The notes under the pieces: model-generated
Seen by the model: the letters and a program-made list of their open reading frames with translations, nothing else
Databases searched by the model: none
What the model was told of the DNA's origin: nothing
Program-made: the position numbers and the translations under genes
Shown: positions 7,915-16,712 of the stretch, one piece after another
Layout of the letters: each line of letters starts with the position of its first letter
Position numbering within the stretch: the first letter of the stretch is position 1
Source: Actinomycetota bacterium
GTDB lineage: Bacteria > Actinomycetota > Acidimicrobiia > Acidimicrobiales > Ilumatobacteraceae
Assembly: GCA_016871355.1 (NCBI GenBank)
Contig: VFZC01000005.1
Location: 1 to 64,000 of the forward strand
Direction: 5' to 3'
Length of the DNA stretch: 64,000 bases

Positions 7915-9617
7915 ACCAGTTCGAGTCCGCCGTCGAGGTACAACTCGCGGCACTTGGCCCGCTGCAACTTGCCGCTGCTCGTCTTGGGCAGTGTTCCGGG
8001 CTTCACGAGCATCACGTCGCGCGGCGGGAGGCCCGACACTTCGAGGGCCGAGTGGTGGATATCGGCGCGAACTCGATCGAGATCGACGTCTTTCACCTCG
8101 GCCACCACGATGACGGTTTCCTTGCCCTTGTACCCGTCGACGCCGAACGCGATCACGTTTCCTGCGCGCACACCGTCGATGGTTCCGACCGCCCGTTCGA
8201 TGTCTTCGGGGAACACGTTGCGACCGCCGACGATGATGACGTCCTTGATGCGACCGCAGATCACCAATTCGCCGTCGAGTGTGTAGGCGAGGTCGCCGGT
8301 GCACAGCCACCCCTCGTGAAACATGGCCGAGGTGGCGTCGGGGCGCTTGTAGTAACCGGGTGTCACGCTCGTTCCGCGCAACAGAAGTTCGCCCACGTGG
8401 CGTTCGGGCAACTCGGTCTTGGTGTCGGGGTCGACGATCTTCATCTCGAGACCGGGCACCGCCCGACCGAGCAACGGAAGACGGCGCACGTGCACCTGGT
8501 CGTCGTCGTTGGGGTCGACTTCCTTGGCGATGCGTTCGCGTTCGAGGACGATGCGATCGACCGAATCGCACACCAAACCCCGATGGCGCTTCGGGAACGC
8601 CCCACCGATGGCCACTTCAGCCATTCCGAACGCCGGGAACACGCTGCCGGCGCGGAAGCCGAAACGGCTCGCCTCGTTCACGAACGCCTCGACGGCCACC
8701 GGATCGACCGGCTCGGCTCCCGACAGCGCGAGAGTGAGCGACGAGAGGTCGATGTCTTTCATGCGCTTCAGCGCGCGCGTGGCCAAGACCCACGAGAAGT
8801 TCGGGCCCGCGGTGGCGGTGCCCTTCCAGTCGCTGATCCACTGCATCCACGAGCCGGGGTGGGCCATGAAGTCCTGTGGCGCGGCTTGCACAAGCTGTAC
8901 ACCCTTCAACATCGGAAGGGCGAGGAACCCCACCAAGCCCATGTCGTGATACAGCGGGAGCCACGAGACCATGACTTCCGACTGCGTGAGTTCGGCCGCC
9001 TCGCACGACGCATCGATGTTCGCGCACAACACCCGATCGGGAATCATCACTCCCTTGGGCTCGGACGTGGATCCGCTGGTGTATTGAAGGACCACCAGAC
9101 GTTCGGGATCGTCGGCCGGAAGTTCGAGGCGGTCGCCGGTGGGTCGGCCGGCACCGGGCATCACCGCGGCCATCGGCTTGATAGGCGGGTCGCCCGGCGC
9201 GGCCTGATAGAAGTCGGCCAGCAGATCGTCGATCAGAATGAGCTTGGCTTCACCGTGGCGAATACGCGCTCGCGTGCTTTCCACGAACGCGTCGAGTGAC
9301 GCCATGCGCATCGGCAGTGGCAACACCATGCTCGCCGCGCCAGCCAACCAGCACCCGCGCACGATCGTCATGAGCGCACGACTGGTGGGTCCGAGAATCG
9401 CGACGTGATCACCCGGTTCGATGCCGAGCGACTGCAACGTGGCGGCCACCGCGCGAGCCTCGTCGTGGATCTGACGCCAGGCGATGAAGTCGCGACCCTC
9501 GGTGGGCTTCACACTCGCGCCCACGAAACGAACACCGGTGGGTGCGTCAGCGGCGCTCTCGAGTCGAGCGATCACCGAACCGCTGGACGGAACGAACGGC
9601 GAGATCGAGGCGTTCAT
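7911..9617 (-). CDS. Fatty-acyl-AMP ligase-like / acyl-CoA synthetase
   Basis: A 568-residue ANL-superfamily adenylating enzyme. The ATP loop is Y-T-S-G-S-T-S-E-P-K-G (179-189). W-L-P-L-Y-H-D-M-G-L-V (about 215-225) is typical of the FAAL/FadD32 branch. The A5 region is F-G-M-A-E-V, the A7 motif T-G-D-L-A-Y, and the C-terminal lysine motif P-K-T-S-S-G-K-L-Q-R. It should activate a fatty acid as acyl-AMP for transfer to an acyl carrier. No polyketide synthase or carrier protein is encoded nearby, so the acceptor is unknown. Whether it forms acyl-CoA instead depends on the FAAL insertion, which I cannot judge without alignment. Confidence 0.85.
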   Translation of the reverse strand: MNASISPFVPSSGSVIARLESAADAPTGVRFVGASVKPTEGRDFIAWRQIHDEARAVAATLQSLGIEPGDHVAILGPTSRALMTIVRGCWLAGAASMVLPLPMRMASLDAFVESTRARIRHGEAKLILIDDLLADFYQAAPGDPPIKPMAAVMPGAGRPTGDRLELPADDPERLVVLQYTSGSTSEPKGVMIPDRVLCANIDASCEAAELTQSEVMVSWLPLYHDMGLVGFLALPMLKGVQLVQAAPQDFMAHPGSWMQWISDWKGTATAGPNFSWVLATRALKRMKDIDLSSLTLALSGAEPVDPVAVEAFVNEASRFGFRAGSVFPAFGMAEVAIGGAFPKRHRGLVCDSVDRIVLERERIAKEVDPNDDDQVHVRRLPLLGRAVPGLEMKIVDPDTKTELPERHVGELLLRGTSVTPGYYKRPDATSAMFHEGWLCTGDLAYTLDGELVICGRIKDVIIVGGRNVFPEDIERAVGTIDGVRAGNVIAFGVDGYKGKETVIVVAEVKDVDLDRVRADIHHSALEVSGLPPRDVMLVKPGTLPKTSSGKLQRAKCRELYLDGGLELV

Positions 9618-9733
9618 GAGACCGGCGAGAACCTAGTCGTGGCCACCCTCACCGAGCCGACTTATCCCCCAAAGACCCAGCACACGAGGGTCGACTCGGC
9701 GCGCGAAACCGGCGCTCGTCGGGGATCGACCAT

Positions 9734-9739
9734 TACCCT
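9734..9739 (+). promoter_or_regulatory. -10 box of leaderless leuS promoter
   Basis: TACCCT, 8 nt before ATG 9748. No ribosome binding site is seen. It lies in the 130-bp divergent gap between the FAAL-like gene and leuS. Confidence 0.45.
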
Positions 9740-9747
9740 GGGCACCC

Positions 9748-12615
9748 ATGTCCGCACCGACCGACGACGCCCCGCGCCACCGCTACAACGCGGCGCTGGC
9801 CCGTCGCATCGAGGAGGCCTGGCAGGACCGCTGGGATGCCGCGGGTACGTTCCACGCGCCCAATCCAGCCGGTCCGTTGGCCGAGCCCGACAAGGTGGGT
9901 GGACGACCCAAACTCTTCGTGCTCGACATGTTCCCGTACCCGAGTGGCGCCGGCCTGCACGTGGGTCATCCGCTCGGCTACATCGGCACCGACGTGTACG
10001 GGCGCTTCAAGCGCATGATGGGCTTCAACGTTCTGCACGCGCTCGGTTACGACAGTTTCGGTTTGCCCGCCGAACAGCACGCCATCACCACCGGCGTGCA
10101 TCCGCGAGTGAACACCGAAGCGAACGTGGCCAACATGCGCCGCCAGTTGCGTCGCCTCGGCTTGGCTCATGATCCTCGGCGCAGTGTGAGCACCACCGAC
10201 GAAGACTTCTGCCGCTGGACGCAGTGGATCTTCTTGCAGGTGTTCAACGCGTGGTACGACACCGAACAAGGGTGCGCGCGACCCATCGCCGAACTCGAAG
10301 CAGAACTCGCTTCCGGCCAGCGCCCCACCAGCGACGGCCGTGCCTGGAGCGCCTTGTCGCGCACCGAACAACGCGCGCACGTCGATTCGCATCGTCTGGC
10401 GTACCTGTCGGAAGCGCCGGTCAACTGGTGTCCGGGTCTGGGCACCATCCTCGCCAACGAAGAGGTCACGGCCGACGGCCGCAGCGACATCGGCAACTAC
10501 CCCGTGTTCGAGAAGAACATGCGCCAGTGGATGATGCGAATCACCGCGTACGCCGATCGACTGCTCGACGATCTCGATCGCCTCGACTGGCCCGAGCCCA
10601 TCAAGTTGATGCAACGCAACTGGATCGGCCGCAGCCACGGCGCGCGAGTCGACTTCGCATCGTCGGCCGGCACCATCACGGTGTTCACCACCCGACCCGA
10701 CACCTTGTTCGGTGCGTCGTTCATGGTTCTCGCGCCCGAGCATCCGCTCGTCGACGCGCTCACCACCGCCGAGCAACGTGCGGCCGTTGTCGCGTACCGA
10801 ACCACCGCGGCGGCCACCAAGGACCTCGATCGCCAGGCCGAGGGTCGTGAGAAGACCGGTGTGTTCACCGGTTCGTTCGCGGTCAATCCGTTGAACGGCG
10901 AGTCGATTCCGGTCTGGATCGCCGACTACGTGCTGATGGGATACGGAACCGGCGCGATCATGGCCGTTCCGTGTGGCGACGAACGCGACTTCGAGTTCGC
11001 TCGAAAGTTCGGCTTGGCGATTCCCGCCATTCAACAGCCACCGGCGGCCTGGTTCGAGGCCCGTTCACTCGCGCCGCAGTCGGGCGCGGCAGTCGACACG
11101 GCTTCGTGGCCCGAGGCGTTCGTGGGCGACGGCGTGTACATCAACTCGGCCCGCGCCGATCTCGACCTGAACGGTGTCGAGTCGGTCGACGAGGGCAAGC
11201 GCATCGTGAACGAGTGGCTCGAACGCAACGGTCGGGGCCAGGCCACCATCAACTACAAGTTGCGCGACTGGCTGTTCAGCCGTCAGCGCTACTGGGGTGA
11301 GCCGTTCCCGATCGTGTACGACGCCGACGGCAGTCCGGTGTCGCTGCCGGCGTCGATGCTGCCGGTTCTGCTGCCCGAACTCGAAGACTTCAAACCGCAA
11401 GCACTCGATCCCGACGACGACGTGACCGACCCGATTCCGCCGCTCGCGCGCGCGTCCGAATGGACCACCGTCACGCTCGATCTGGGCGACGGCCCGAAGC
11501 AGTACCGCCGCGAAATCAACGTGATGCCGCAGTGGGCCGGTTCGTGTTGGTACGAGCTGCGCTATCTTGACCCCACCAACTCCGACCACTTCGTCGATCC
11601 GGCGGTGGAGAAGTACTGGATGGGTCCGGCCGACGACGGCGATGGCCGCACCGGCCACACCGGTGGTGTCGATCTGTACGTGGGTGGCGTCGAACACGCG
11701 GTTCTGCACCTGTTGTACGCGCGCTTCTGGCACAAGGTGCTGTTCGACCTCGGACACGTCTCGAGTTCCGAACCGTTCCACCGTCTCTTCAATCAGGGCC
11801 ACATCCAGGCCTACGCCTATCGCGATCCGCGCGGCCAGCCGGTGCCGGCCGCTGAGGTCGAAGAACGCGACGGCGCCTACTGGTTCGACGGTGAGAAGGT
11901 CGCGCGCGAATACGGGAAGATGGGCAAGAGCCTCAAGAACATCGTCACTCCCGACGAGATGTACGACGAGTACGGCGCCGACACGTTCCGCTTGTACGAG
12001 ATGAGCATGGGACCACTCGAGGCGAGCCGTCCCTGGAACACTCGCGACGTCGTGGGAATGCAGCGCTTCTTGCAGCGCGTGTGGCGCAACGTGGTCGACG
12101 AAGACTCCGGCGAACTGCGGGTGTCCGATTCGGCCACACCCGACGAACTGCGTCGACTTCTGCACCGAACCATCGACGGCGTTCGCACCGACATGGACAA
12201 CTTGCGCTTCAACACGGCCATCGCCAAGTTGATCGAACTGAACAACGCGCTCACCCAAGAAGTGACTCGTTCCGGTTCGACGCCGCGCGAAGTGGCCGAC
12301 TCGTTGGTGCAGATGTTGTCGCCGCTGTGCCCCCACCTCGCCGAAGAACTCTGGGGTCGACTCGGCCACTCCGGTTCGATCACGTTCGTGACGTTCCCGG
12401 TTCCCGATCCGAGCCTCTTGGTCGACGATTCGGTGGAGTACCCGGTGCAGATCAACGGCAAGGTGCGCGCGCGCATCTCGGCGCCGGCCGACGCCGACCA
12501 AGCCACCGTGCAAGCGATCGCCCTGGCCGACGACAAGGTGGTAGCCGCTCTGGCCGGTGTGGCGCCCAAGAAAGTGATCGTCGTTCCGGGCCGCATGGTC
12601 AACCTGGTCGTGTGA
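9748..12615 (+). CDS. leuS: Leucyl-tRNA synthetase
   Basis: Charges tRNA-Leu with leucine. The 955-residue class I enzyme has the HIGH signature as [12 protein letters not shown] (64-74) and KMSKS as K-M-G-K-S (724-728). Between them lies a CP1 editing domain with the T-rich motif [10 protein letters not shown]. The leucine-specific region includes [19 protein letters not shown]. The C-terminal anticodon-binding and Leu-C domains are complete (Q-I-N-G-K-V-R-A near residue 905). Length is at the long end for LeuS. The next gene starts 4 nt after the stop, so the two probably share a transcript. Confidence 0.97.
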
Positions 12616-14378: not shown

Positions 14379-15467
14379 TCAACTCATGCGGCACACGTGG
14401 CCGATGCGCGGATCGACACGCCCCGCGAGCATCTCGCCGTAGAGACGTTCCACGTTCTCGGCGCCTTGCGTGGTCTCGAATCGCAACCAGCCGTTCGACC
14501 ACGACGCGAAGCGATCCCACGCGTCACCCACCCGTTGATCGAGCCCGTCGCGGCCCCACTCCTTGGTGCGCAGTGCGATCTGCGACGGCGCGAAGAAGAA
14601 CTCTGGCTTGGGCCCGGGCATGGCACCGTCGGCGCGTGGGGCCGACCAATGCGTTCCGCCCACCACCATGCTGTACGCGAGGCCGTCTTCGAAGATGCGG
14701 TGGACTCCGCCGGTGACGGCCTGATCGCCCGCGATGTCGACGTAGGCGGCGCGGCCTTCGGGCCACGACGCCGATCCCTGCGCGACTTCGTCGTAAGTGA
14801 CGACCGACGAGTAGCAGCCGAGGTCGTTCACGAACGACGCGTTGCCCTTGGAGGTGACGCCCACGACGTGGATGTCGGGGCGTAGCGCACCCAAGAACGC
14901 CGCACCGATCGCGGTCTTGCTCGATGCACTCGACACCACGACCGTGGTGACTTCGGGGTCGGACAGAACGCTCTGACCCAGGAAGTCGTCGATCATGAAC
15001 GACGTCATGAACAGCGGCCACAGCACCATCTGGTGCGCTTCGCGGTCGGCTCGGTACGTGGGGTCGGCGGCCGTGTTCGAGTAGCGGTTGTACGCGGCGG
15101 CCATCGGCGAACGATGTTCGGCGAGGTCGGTGAATCCACGCGCATCCACGCGCCCGGCCTGCACCACCAATTCGGTACCCATGGGCAGATAGCCGTAGAA
15201 GCGCTGACCGACTTCGAGCGCTGACTTCGACTCGACCACGTCGGCGAATCCCCACACGGGGACCCGTCCCCACGAGCCCTCGCCCACCGGAAAGAAATCC
15301 CAGTAACGCAAGCCGTCGCCGAACACGGCGTAGGTGATGTTGTTGGCCGTGAGCGCGAAGGCCTCGATCGCCAGTCGCGCTTCGCCATCGGCCAGCGCTC
15401 GTGACGGTGAGCGGTTGAGACGGCTGACGGACAGATTCGAACGATCGACATCGATGACGACGGACAT
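14379..15467 (-). CDS. DUF2855 family protein
   Basis: A 362-residue protein with the DUF2855 pattern, related to medium-chain dehydrogenases. The N-terminal half resembles a GroES-like domain (A-L-T-A-N-N-I-T-Y-A-V-F-G-D about 37-50, and Y-W-D-F-F-P). The central part is Rossmann-like with V-V-V-S-S-A-S-S-K-T-A-I-G (about 176-188), a conserved DUF2855 feature. The biochemical role is not established. ATG 15467 follows a G-rich ribosome binding site (GGTGGGGGAG). Divergent from the GrdB-like gene with a 90-bp gap. The F-F-A-P near the C-terminus is also typical. Confidence 0.85.
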   Translation of the reverse strand: MSVVIDVDRSNLSVSRLNRSPSRALADGEARLAIEAFALTANNITYAVFGDGLRYWDFFPVGEGSWGRVPVWGFADVVESKSALEVGQRFYGYLPMGTELVVQAGRVDARGFTDLAEHRSPMAAAYNRYSNTAADPTYRADREAHQMVLWPLFMTSFMIDDFLGQSVLSDPEVTTVVVSSASSKTAIGAAFLGALRPDIHVVGVTSKGNASFVNDLGCYSSVVTYDEVAQGSASWPEGRAAYVDIAGDQAVTGGVHRIFEDGLAYSMVVGGTHWSAPRADGAMPGPKPEFFFAPSQIALRTKEWGRDGLDQRVGDAWDRFASWSNGWLRFETTQGAENVERLYGEMLAGRVDPRIGHVCRMS

Positions 15468-15545
15468 GGCTCCCCCACCTTCTTTTCGGGCTCGGACCAT
15501 CCTCGCAGACGCTCGGTGGGGGCTTCGTAGCCACGCGACCCTCGC

Positions 15546-15551
15546 TACTGT
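15546..15551 (+). promoter_or_regulatory. -10 box of leaderless GrdB-like promoter
   Basis: TACTGT, 6 nt before GTG 15558. It supports that GTG as the start of the selenoprotein candidate. Nothing comparable precedes the second half at 16029. Confidence 0.55.
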
Positions 15552-15557
15552 GAGGTC

Positions 15558-16712
15558 GTGAACGGTGACCAGGCCATGCGCGAGATGGGGAAGAACCTCC
15601 CCGTCCCGACCTTCGACGGCACGGCGTGGGCGTCGGCCCCGCGCCTGCGCGACGCGACGGTGGCCATCGTGACCTCGGCGGCGATCCACCGCGCCCACGA
15701 CGACCGCTTCAGTGCCGGTGACACCGGCTATCGCATGATTCCGTCCGATGCGCACGACTTGGTGATGGGCCATTGGAGCCCGAACTTCGATCACACCGGA
15801 TTCCAGATCGACCTGAACGTGGTGTTCCCCATCGATCGACTCCACGAGTTGGCCGCCGACAAGGTGATCGGACGCGTCGCGCCGCGTCACTACTCGTTCG
15901 CCGGCAATCAACCCGACGACGTATCGGCCATTCGTCTCGACAGTGGCCCGGCGGTCGCCGCCGAGTTGAAGCGTGACGGCGTCGATGTTGTGTTGCTCAC
16001 ACCTGTTTGACCGCTTTGTACGCGCACCGTGAGTGTGCTCGCGCATGTGATCGAAGCAGCCGGAATATCCACGGTGGTGCTCGCCTCGATGCGACCGGTC
16101 GTGGAGAAGATGCGTCCTCCCCGCTCGCTGTATTGCGAGTTTCCGCTCGGCCGTCCACTCGGAATTCCCGGTGACGCCGAGTTTCAGCATCGCGTGTTGA
16201 CCGAGGCGTTCTCACTGTTGGACACGACGGCCGACCACGGCCCGATCATTCGAGACTTCGACGAGGTCGTCGAATCCGACGAGCAGCCGGTTGAGTGTGC
16301 ACTGCCGCCGCGTTTCGATCCGAACCTTCCCGCGTGCGTGGACGAAGCCCGGGGGCTACGAAACGCGTACGACCGTGCCGTGGCCAAGCGCCGACACACC
16401 GATGTCGGCCGTGCGGTCGATGCCGACACGGTTCCGGAAGTGCTCGCCGCATTTCACCGCATCGCGTCGGGCGACGACTGGACGACCGTTGCGATTCCGG
16501 GCAAGAACACCGTGGCCGTGATGCACGACGTCCGCGCGTACTACGAAGAGGCGGCACTCGAATTGGTGGGCACCGCCGGTGCGCGCAGCCTGGAAGCGTG
16601 GTTCTTCGAGGCGACCGAGGCCGGCAAGACCACGCTCGCGGCGCGCCAAGCGATCAAGGACGGGGGCGGACCGTTCCCGTTCTGGTTCTACATGGCCCCG
16701 GGCCACCGCTGA
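15558..16712 (+). CDS. GrdB/PrdB-like reductase with in-frame UGA: candidate selenoprotein
   Basis: One 384-residue reading frame interrupted only by TGA at 16008-16010 (codon 151). The part before the TGA has the family pattern: V-A-I-V-T-S-A-A-I-H-R, F-S-A-G-D-T-G-Y-R-M-I-P, H-T-G-F-Q-I-D-L-N-V-V-F-P-I-D-R-L, and H-Y-S-F-A-G. The part after it continues in the same frame as P-L-C-T-R-T-V-S-V-L-A, then M-R-P-P-R-S-L-Y and F-P-L-G-R-P-L-G-I-P-G-D. In the glycine/sarcosine/betaine/D-proline reductase B-like family the site normally reads C-P-L-C or has Sec. Here UGA replaces the first Cys, giving Sec-Pro-Leu-Cys. The downstream half has no promoter, RBS or sensible start. I infer Sec insertion rather than a pseudogene; the substrate is unknown. 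selA, selB, selC and selD are not in this window. Confidence 0.75.
16008..16038 (+). promoter_or_regulatory. UGA codon and SECIS-like stem-loop
   Basis: TGA at 16008-16010 is followed 12 nt later by a 6-bp stem, GCGCAC (16022-16027) with GTGTGC (16033-16038, one G-U pair), closing a five-base loop CGTGA. The loop starts 17 nt after the UGA and has G as its second base. This fits the bacterial SECIS layout as I remember it (short apical loop with an early G, placed inside the coding sequence just downstream of UGA). The stem is short, so this alone is modest evidence. Confidence 0.5.

Follow-up and report, generated by a model that had tools for sequence, protein, structure and literature searches.

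Does a TGA in the middle of a conserved reading frame mark the end of a protein, or is it read as selenocysteine (Sec)? The question is raised by a locus on contig VFZC01000005.1 of an actinomycetotal assembly (GCA_016871355.1) placed in the Ilumatobacteraceae. In the window, that is, the whole stretch of 64,000 nucleotides that was analysed, the plus-strand translation of positions 15558-16712 begins with GTG and runs through 384 residues to a final TGA (16710-16712), its sole internal stop being the TGA at 16008-16010, codon 151, which is directly followed by Pro-Leu-Cys and would thus yield a U-P-L-C motif. A plain listing of open reading frames halves this gene into a 150-amino-acid ORF (15558-16010) and a 227-amino-acid ORF (16029-16712), the latter opening with a GTG 18 bases past the TGA, just as the first-pass annotation of this DNA had expected of standard annotation. 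That annotation regarded the halves as parts of one protein family, in the same frame and separated by the TGA only, and profile searches bear this out, as each half alone matches successive positions of the PrdB model TIGR04483, namely 12-145 (1.1e-26) and then 151-226 (1.3e-8). From the sequence evidence assembled below it seems very probable (about 0.88) that 15558-16712 encodes one 384-residue protein in which UGA 151 is decoded as Sec.

The persistence of the TGA among relatives is central to this reading. A scan of genome contigs with six peptide patterns, none of which touches codon 151, recovered 58 relative loci, and the codon is TGA in all 53 that reach it, down to 46% identity; the remaining five (L070, L072, L073, L074 and L076) have no match at codon 151 and lie outside this count. 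The nearest named record, 'Acidimicrobiales bacterium mtb01', is 90% identical. At L063 the upstream part lies in other frames, and TGA-Pro-Leu-Cys is still in frame with the downstream part. For neighbouring genes and codons a set of 54 loci was used, L072, L073, L074 and L076 being excluded as their match lies downstream of codon 151, and the sets for codon choice, dN/dS and folding of recoded sequences, which also omit L060 (partial), L063 (frameshifted) and L070 (starting past the codon), comprise 51 relatives plus the window. The alignments contain, besides the window, 32 relatives (A1), 52 (A2) and 37 (A4).

Some of these records are unusual in themselves. At L073 (5947-6246) residues 1-38 abut residues 303-382, as if the middle of the gene, including the Sec site, had been deleted, and from this close joining the copy is judged to be damaged or chimeric. 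L070 is a fragment with a TGA (498-500) at the codon of the nearly invariant Cys193, and an assembly error is likely here, because the match does not extend upstream of residue 158. The records of L039, L062, L063, L070 and L071 hold copies 50-72% identical to that of the window and are labelled Acidobacteria, Pseudomonadales, Akkermansiaceae, Poseidoniales and Deltaproteobacteria; mis-binning of contigs seems a more probable cause of these labels than transfer.

Surveys of larger sets of genomes gave a similar picture. Within the class Acidimicrobiia, 89 of 296 genomes have a match at E <= 1e-10, and 42 fall in a full-length group, defined by a best E <= 1e-120, although two of these 42 matches are partial. 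Exactly one TGA is present in 40 of the 42, in every case at the UPxC site (40/40), and two have no TGA. The class-survey set and the 58-locus set appear to have several records in common (L082 and L019, for example) and are not independent. Stem and site were read at 39 loci, of which 38 fitted the pattern; at L086 the TGA was confirmed at the site and the stem was left uncounted, L125 and L153 proved to be one and the same gene, five further loci plus L162 were read separately, and the window itself was counted as L085. Of the 40 TGA sites, 33 come from the 39-locus reading, one is that of L086, five come from the further loci and one is that of L162. At the level of the phylum, 62 of 396 genomes match at 1e-20, and eight of the nine in the full-length group carry the TGA. 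The ninth, G319, holds the one full-length Cys homologue found, with the motif CPMC, and CPLC occurs in the shorter relatives L147, L148 and L150; the Cys form named by the first-pass annotation does exist. The two class copies without TGA, L108 (genome G194) and L109 (G158), both from one genus, have Ala (GCT, GCG) instead. An unrelated residue at codon 151, which the first-pass annotation had named as a further sign against its proposal, is confined to these two Ala copies.

If the TGA had truncated the gene, one might look for relaxed selection behind it, which the first-pass annotation had named as a sign of a pseudogene. This is not what was found: against L019 (90% identical) dN/dS is 0.082 before the TGA and 0.073 after it, and the medians over 69 close pairs are 0.10 and 0.12, so that the downstream part is constrained as strongly as the upstream part.

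A further line of evidence concerns the RNA immediately beyond the TGA. The available text of an ocean metagenome survey describes the bacterial SECIS as a hairpin directly 3' of the UGA with a small apical loop that contains a guanosine (PMC1088965), and such a structure is present at 16018-16042 of the plus strand. This candidate hairpin consists of a six-pair stem (16022-16027/16033-16038) that begins 11 bases after the UGA, a loop CGUGA (16028-16032), and two more, outer pairs (16018-16019/16041-16042). The bases that form it are those in which codon choice is restricted: among 136 well conserved codon sites, T155, R156, T157, V158, L161 and A162 stand out, T155 being ACG in 52 of 52 sequences, T157 ACC in 50 of 51 and V158 GTG in 51 of 52, and the mean entropy change over six sites in codons 152-160 is -0.94 bits versus -0.21 across all sites. 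As a point against, isolated sites elsewhere are also codon-restricted, S74 being the lowest. Over 51 distinct rows 99.5% of the cells are complementary, whereas slid controls reach at most 69%. At the fourth inner pair (18-28), 28 of these rows have U-A and 22 have C-G, a compensatory change, and the fifth goes from A-U to G-C in one row; four of the eight pairs are invariant, and of the five measures tested by shuffling two are weak, with changes on both sides reached by 9 of 500 shuffles and further pair types by all 500.

The U-A/C-G switch couples an Arg codon (CGT or CGC) to the residue four codons on, CGT being found mostly with Thr (ACG) and CGC with Val (GTG) or Ala (GCG), with L031 mixed; given this linkage, the protein sequence seems to bend to the RNA at the putative hairpin. 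Folding of the region gives a mean energy of -9.3 kcal/mol, compared with -4.3 for synonymous recodings, none of 200 of which was as low. When the hairpin region of the window is folded alone, its stability does not exceed that of dinucleotide shuffles in any of four stretches (z -0.32 to +1.24), and the folding program favours a shifted hairpin in L019 and L045. The inner stem is intact, with six of six pairs, in each of the 40 TGA copies that were counted (a set that overlaps with the 58 loci and includes the window), while the long homologues without TGA retain three of six (Ala), three of six (Ala) and two of six (Cys).

Decoding of the UGA also depends on dedicated factors, and SelA, SelB, SelD and tRNA-Sec were all found in the genome of the window, which is 86% complete; the absence of this machinery, which the first-pass annotation had regarded as fatal to its proposal, is not observed. 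The frames of SelA (7942-9672) and SelB (9669-10961), both on L018, overlap by four bases, and the tRNA-Sec has the anticodon TCA (UCA). Across the class, SelA is present in 38 of the 40 genomes that carry the TGA, against 206 of 296 overall. In the two exceptions, G188 (79% complete) and G174 (70% complete), SelA and SelB were not found above cut-off, and the missing SelA is put down to genome incompleteness alone. The Cys genome G319 holds SelA and SelB. Neither was found above cut-off in the two Ala genomes, which are 64% and 80% complete, and in the Ala copies the rest of the protein is kept despite the Ala and a hairpin that is half lost. Two homologues with Ala at the Sec site imply that Sec can go without replacement by Cys, and such a loss possibly took place in this genus.

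It is against this background that other explanations of the TGA have to be considered. A pseudogene or a sequencing error would mean that a nonsense mutation split a Cys-type gene whose halves are now decaying, which would agree with the halved ORF listing and with the occurrence of copies without TGA; yet a TGA retained in 53 of 53 relatives, equal purifying selection on either side of it and a hairpin that is conserved and covaries leave this explanation with next to no probability. The conserved TGA, the covarying hairpin, the machinery and the equally low dN/dS are together the grounds for regarding the locus as a selenoprotein gene instead. As Sec is read here from nucleotides and not from the protein, one might also argue that the UGA is decoded as some other amino acid or by non-specific read-through. 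This is very improbable, however, as the gene of the window and many of its relatives themselves terminate in TGA, the hairpin is specific and has decayed in the copies without TGA, the Sec machinery is complete, and the position is that of the TGA of PrdB. Somewhat less remote, though still improbable, is the notion that the 150-residue product is used as well and that selenium supply decides, at the UGA, which of the two products is made: recoding is described as competing with termination in the available part of one source (PMC4513850), and the 227-amino-acid ORF has its own GTG shortly after the TGA, but the two halves make up a single domain. Decoding of UGA 151 as Sec within one protein remains the preferred reading.

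Which protein this is raises a separate question, as the first-pass annotation had placed it among the known GrdB/PrdB reductases. The joined protein matches TIGR04483 over residues 16-229 (15603-16244) at 1.8e-42 and 145.4 bits, well short of the curated cut-off of 300, which the positive control, Terrisporobacter PrdB, passes with 424.7. PF07355 (GRDB) matches residues 10-148 at 34.2 bits, above the gathering cut-off of 22, and TIGR01918, the selenoprotein B subfamily, scores 59.3 bits, below its cut-off of 65.45; no NCBIfam model is above cut-off for the joined protein. The TGA aligns exactly with that of two annotated genes, the Terrisporobacter plasmid prdB (with prdA and prdC nearby) and the Ligilactobacillus plasmid prdB, and because of this alignment there is a high probability that the protein works via Sec at the same active site. 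Around its Sec, Terrisporobacter PrdB itself (L157:4986-5708) weakly matches the UGSC selenoprotein family (22.5 bits, cut-off 125), a hint that the two share an origin.

The characterised relatives depend on a pyruvoyl subunit. A first search of the genome of the window for the pyruvoyl-type family PF09338 (PrdA) was made without a positive control; in the subsequent search of 396 genomes of the phylum, PF09338 was absent from all nine full-length carriers, this genome included, and was matched in 15 genomes, including two from the same class; the model also picks up PrdA in each of the two annotated prd clusters. At the 54 loci no prdA-like neighbour was seen, unlike in the two annotated clusters, where prdA lies near prdB, and no neighbour of any kind is common to more than 12 of the 54. 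In the window the flanking genes code for DUF2855 and HTH_67 proteins on the opposite strand. The DUF2855 gene (14397-15488, minus strand) is divergent, and a DUF2855-like gene occurs at 8 of the 54 loci, being divergent and directly upstream in 6. Between the two genes lies a candidate -10 hexamer, TACTGT (15546-15551, plus strand), six bases 5' of the start codon in what would be a leaderless arrangement. The leaderless promoter suggested by the first-pass annotation thus has support in the nearest clade only, as the hexamer is also present in L019 and L020, and was not seen at the six-base distance in the other upstream regions inspected, many of which lie before the beginning of a match instead of a start codon.

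It is conceivable that the protein is nevertheless a true subunit of a D-proline, glycine, betaine or sarcosine reductase whose pyruvoyl partner is encoded elsewhere in the genome. In this respect, the Sec position is the same, identity to annotated PrdB is 34-35%, and the metagenome papers, as far as their available text goes, class such sequences as PrdB (PMC1088965, PMC2398784). A TIGR04483 score of 145 where 300 is demanded, the occurrence of PF09338 in 0 of 9 carriers versus 15 of 396 genomes, the prdA-free surroundings and the extra C-terminal domain speak against this, and such a role is considered unlikely. Membership of the known reductases, as first proposed, was consequently too strong a claim, in view of the score and of carriers without PF09338; most likely the protein is a stand-alone Sec/Cys reductase and not a D-proline reductase.

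The extra domain extends over residues ~259-384 (16332-16709) and has no counterpart in the two PrdB proteins used for comparison. It is predicted with high confidence to be helical, with a pLDDT of 91.6 for residues 240-384 alone and 91.4 for the whole protein, and found no convincing match among solved structures. In alignment A1 Arg326, Tyr328, Tyr329, Trp348, Thr353, Gly356 and Arg363 are invariant, and so, in A1 and A3, is Cys154 (codon 16017-16019), presumably the resolving thiol of the UxxC pair.

A scheme for the action of such a protein can be proposed. SelB and Sec-tRNA(Sec) would recognise the hairpin 3' of UGA 16008-16010 and insert Sec at residue 151, and the product would be a stand-alone relative of PrdB and GrdB with Sec in the place of the PrdB Sec, paired with Cys154. 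The selenolate may then attack the substrate, and the adduct, or a selenenyl-sulfide between U151 and C154, would be re-reduced by a thiol donor, with Cys154 as the resolving residue. The C-terminal helical domain, which is conserved along with the gene, most likely helps to build the substrate site and would in this way replace the pyruvoyl partner. The chemistry outlined here is given about even odds. Rather more tentative, and somewhat short of even, is the proposal that these proteins form a distinct selenoenzyme subfamily of free-living Acidimicrobiia, combining a PrdB-type Sec domain with an unmatched helical domain, lacking a pyruvoyl subunit and carrying out a new Sec-dependent reduction.

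If this proposal is true, the name 'D-proline reductase' would largely be a misnomer among the abundant selenoproteins of the ocean. The role of these PrdB-like proteins also becomes testable, as there is one protein, no known partner and a defined active site, and since Sec, Cys and Ala forms occur in nature, some with the hairpin and some lacking it, Sec decoding can be examined cleanly within the sequence itself. A conserved selenoprotein has here been easy to overlook, because the ORF listing halves the gene and no NCBIfam model scores above cut-off, the long form being present in 42 of the 296 genomes sampled from the class.

To what extent is the protein new? That the UGA encodes Sec in a GrdB/PrdB-like protein stands, on the alignment with the annotated PrdB TGA and the full machinery; 'new', as the first-pass annotation had it, is too strong, because selenoproteins of the PrdB type with UxxC have already been described for the Sargasso Sea and GOS metagenomes and, according to the available text of both papers, have been on record since 2005 and count among the abundant selenoproteins there (PMC1088965, PMC2398784). 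The former lists 42 Sec genes and one Cys homologue (PMC1088965), the latter, under pfam07355, 235 Sec genes and 110 Cys homologues (PMC2398784). These share UxxC and, in the GOS table, pfam07355 with the protein described here, and may comprise the long form, the short form or both. In the available portion of a 2026 selenoprotein inventory, TIGR04483 (D-proline reductase) and PF07355 (GRDB) are entered, and the long form has no entry of its own. The kind is thus already known; the literature searched contained no separate description of the long partnerless form.

Among the known systems PrdB (TIGR04483) is similar in its homology over residues 16-229, in the TGA at the identical aligned position and in UxxC, but it has UGTC where UPLC is found here, and the protein of the window has half the curated score, ~150 extra C-terminal residues, no prd cluster and, in nine carriers, no PF09338 partner. 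With GrdB (PF07355, TIGR01918) there is likeness at the level of PF07355, above cut-off, the match stopping three residues before the Sec, but it is confined to positions 202-345 of the 347 in that profile, and TIGR01918 stays below cut-off. The same class and phylum also contain a second group of PrdB-like selenoproteins, which are shorter (L111, L114, L115, L118, L119, L126, L128, L135 and others) and have UPxC, mostly followed by His, and several genomes, for example G027, G254, G246 and G227, hold both forms. In such shorter proteins (e.g. L111, L114, L118, L128 and L135) UPxC is at the same place as in the long form, but their match spans only its residues ~15-230.
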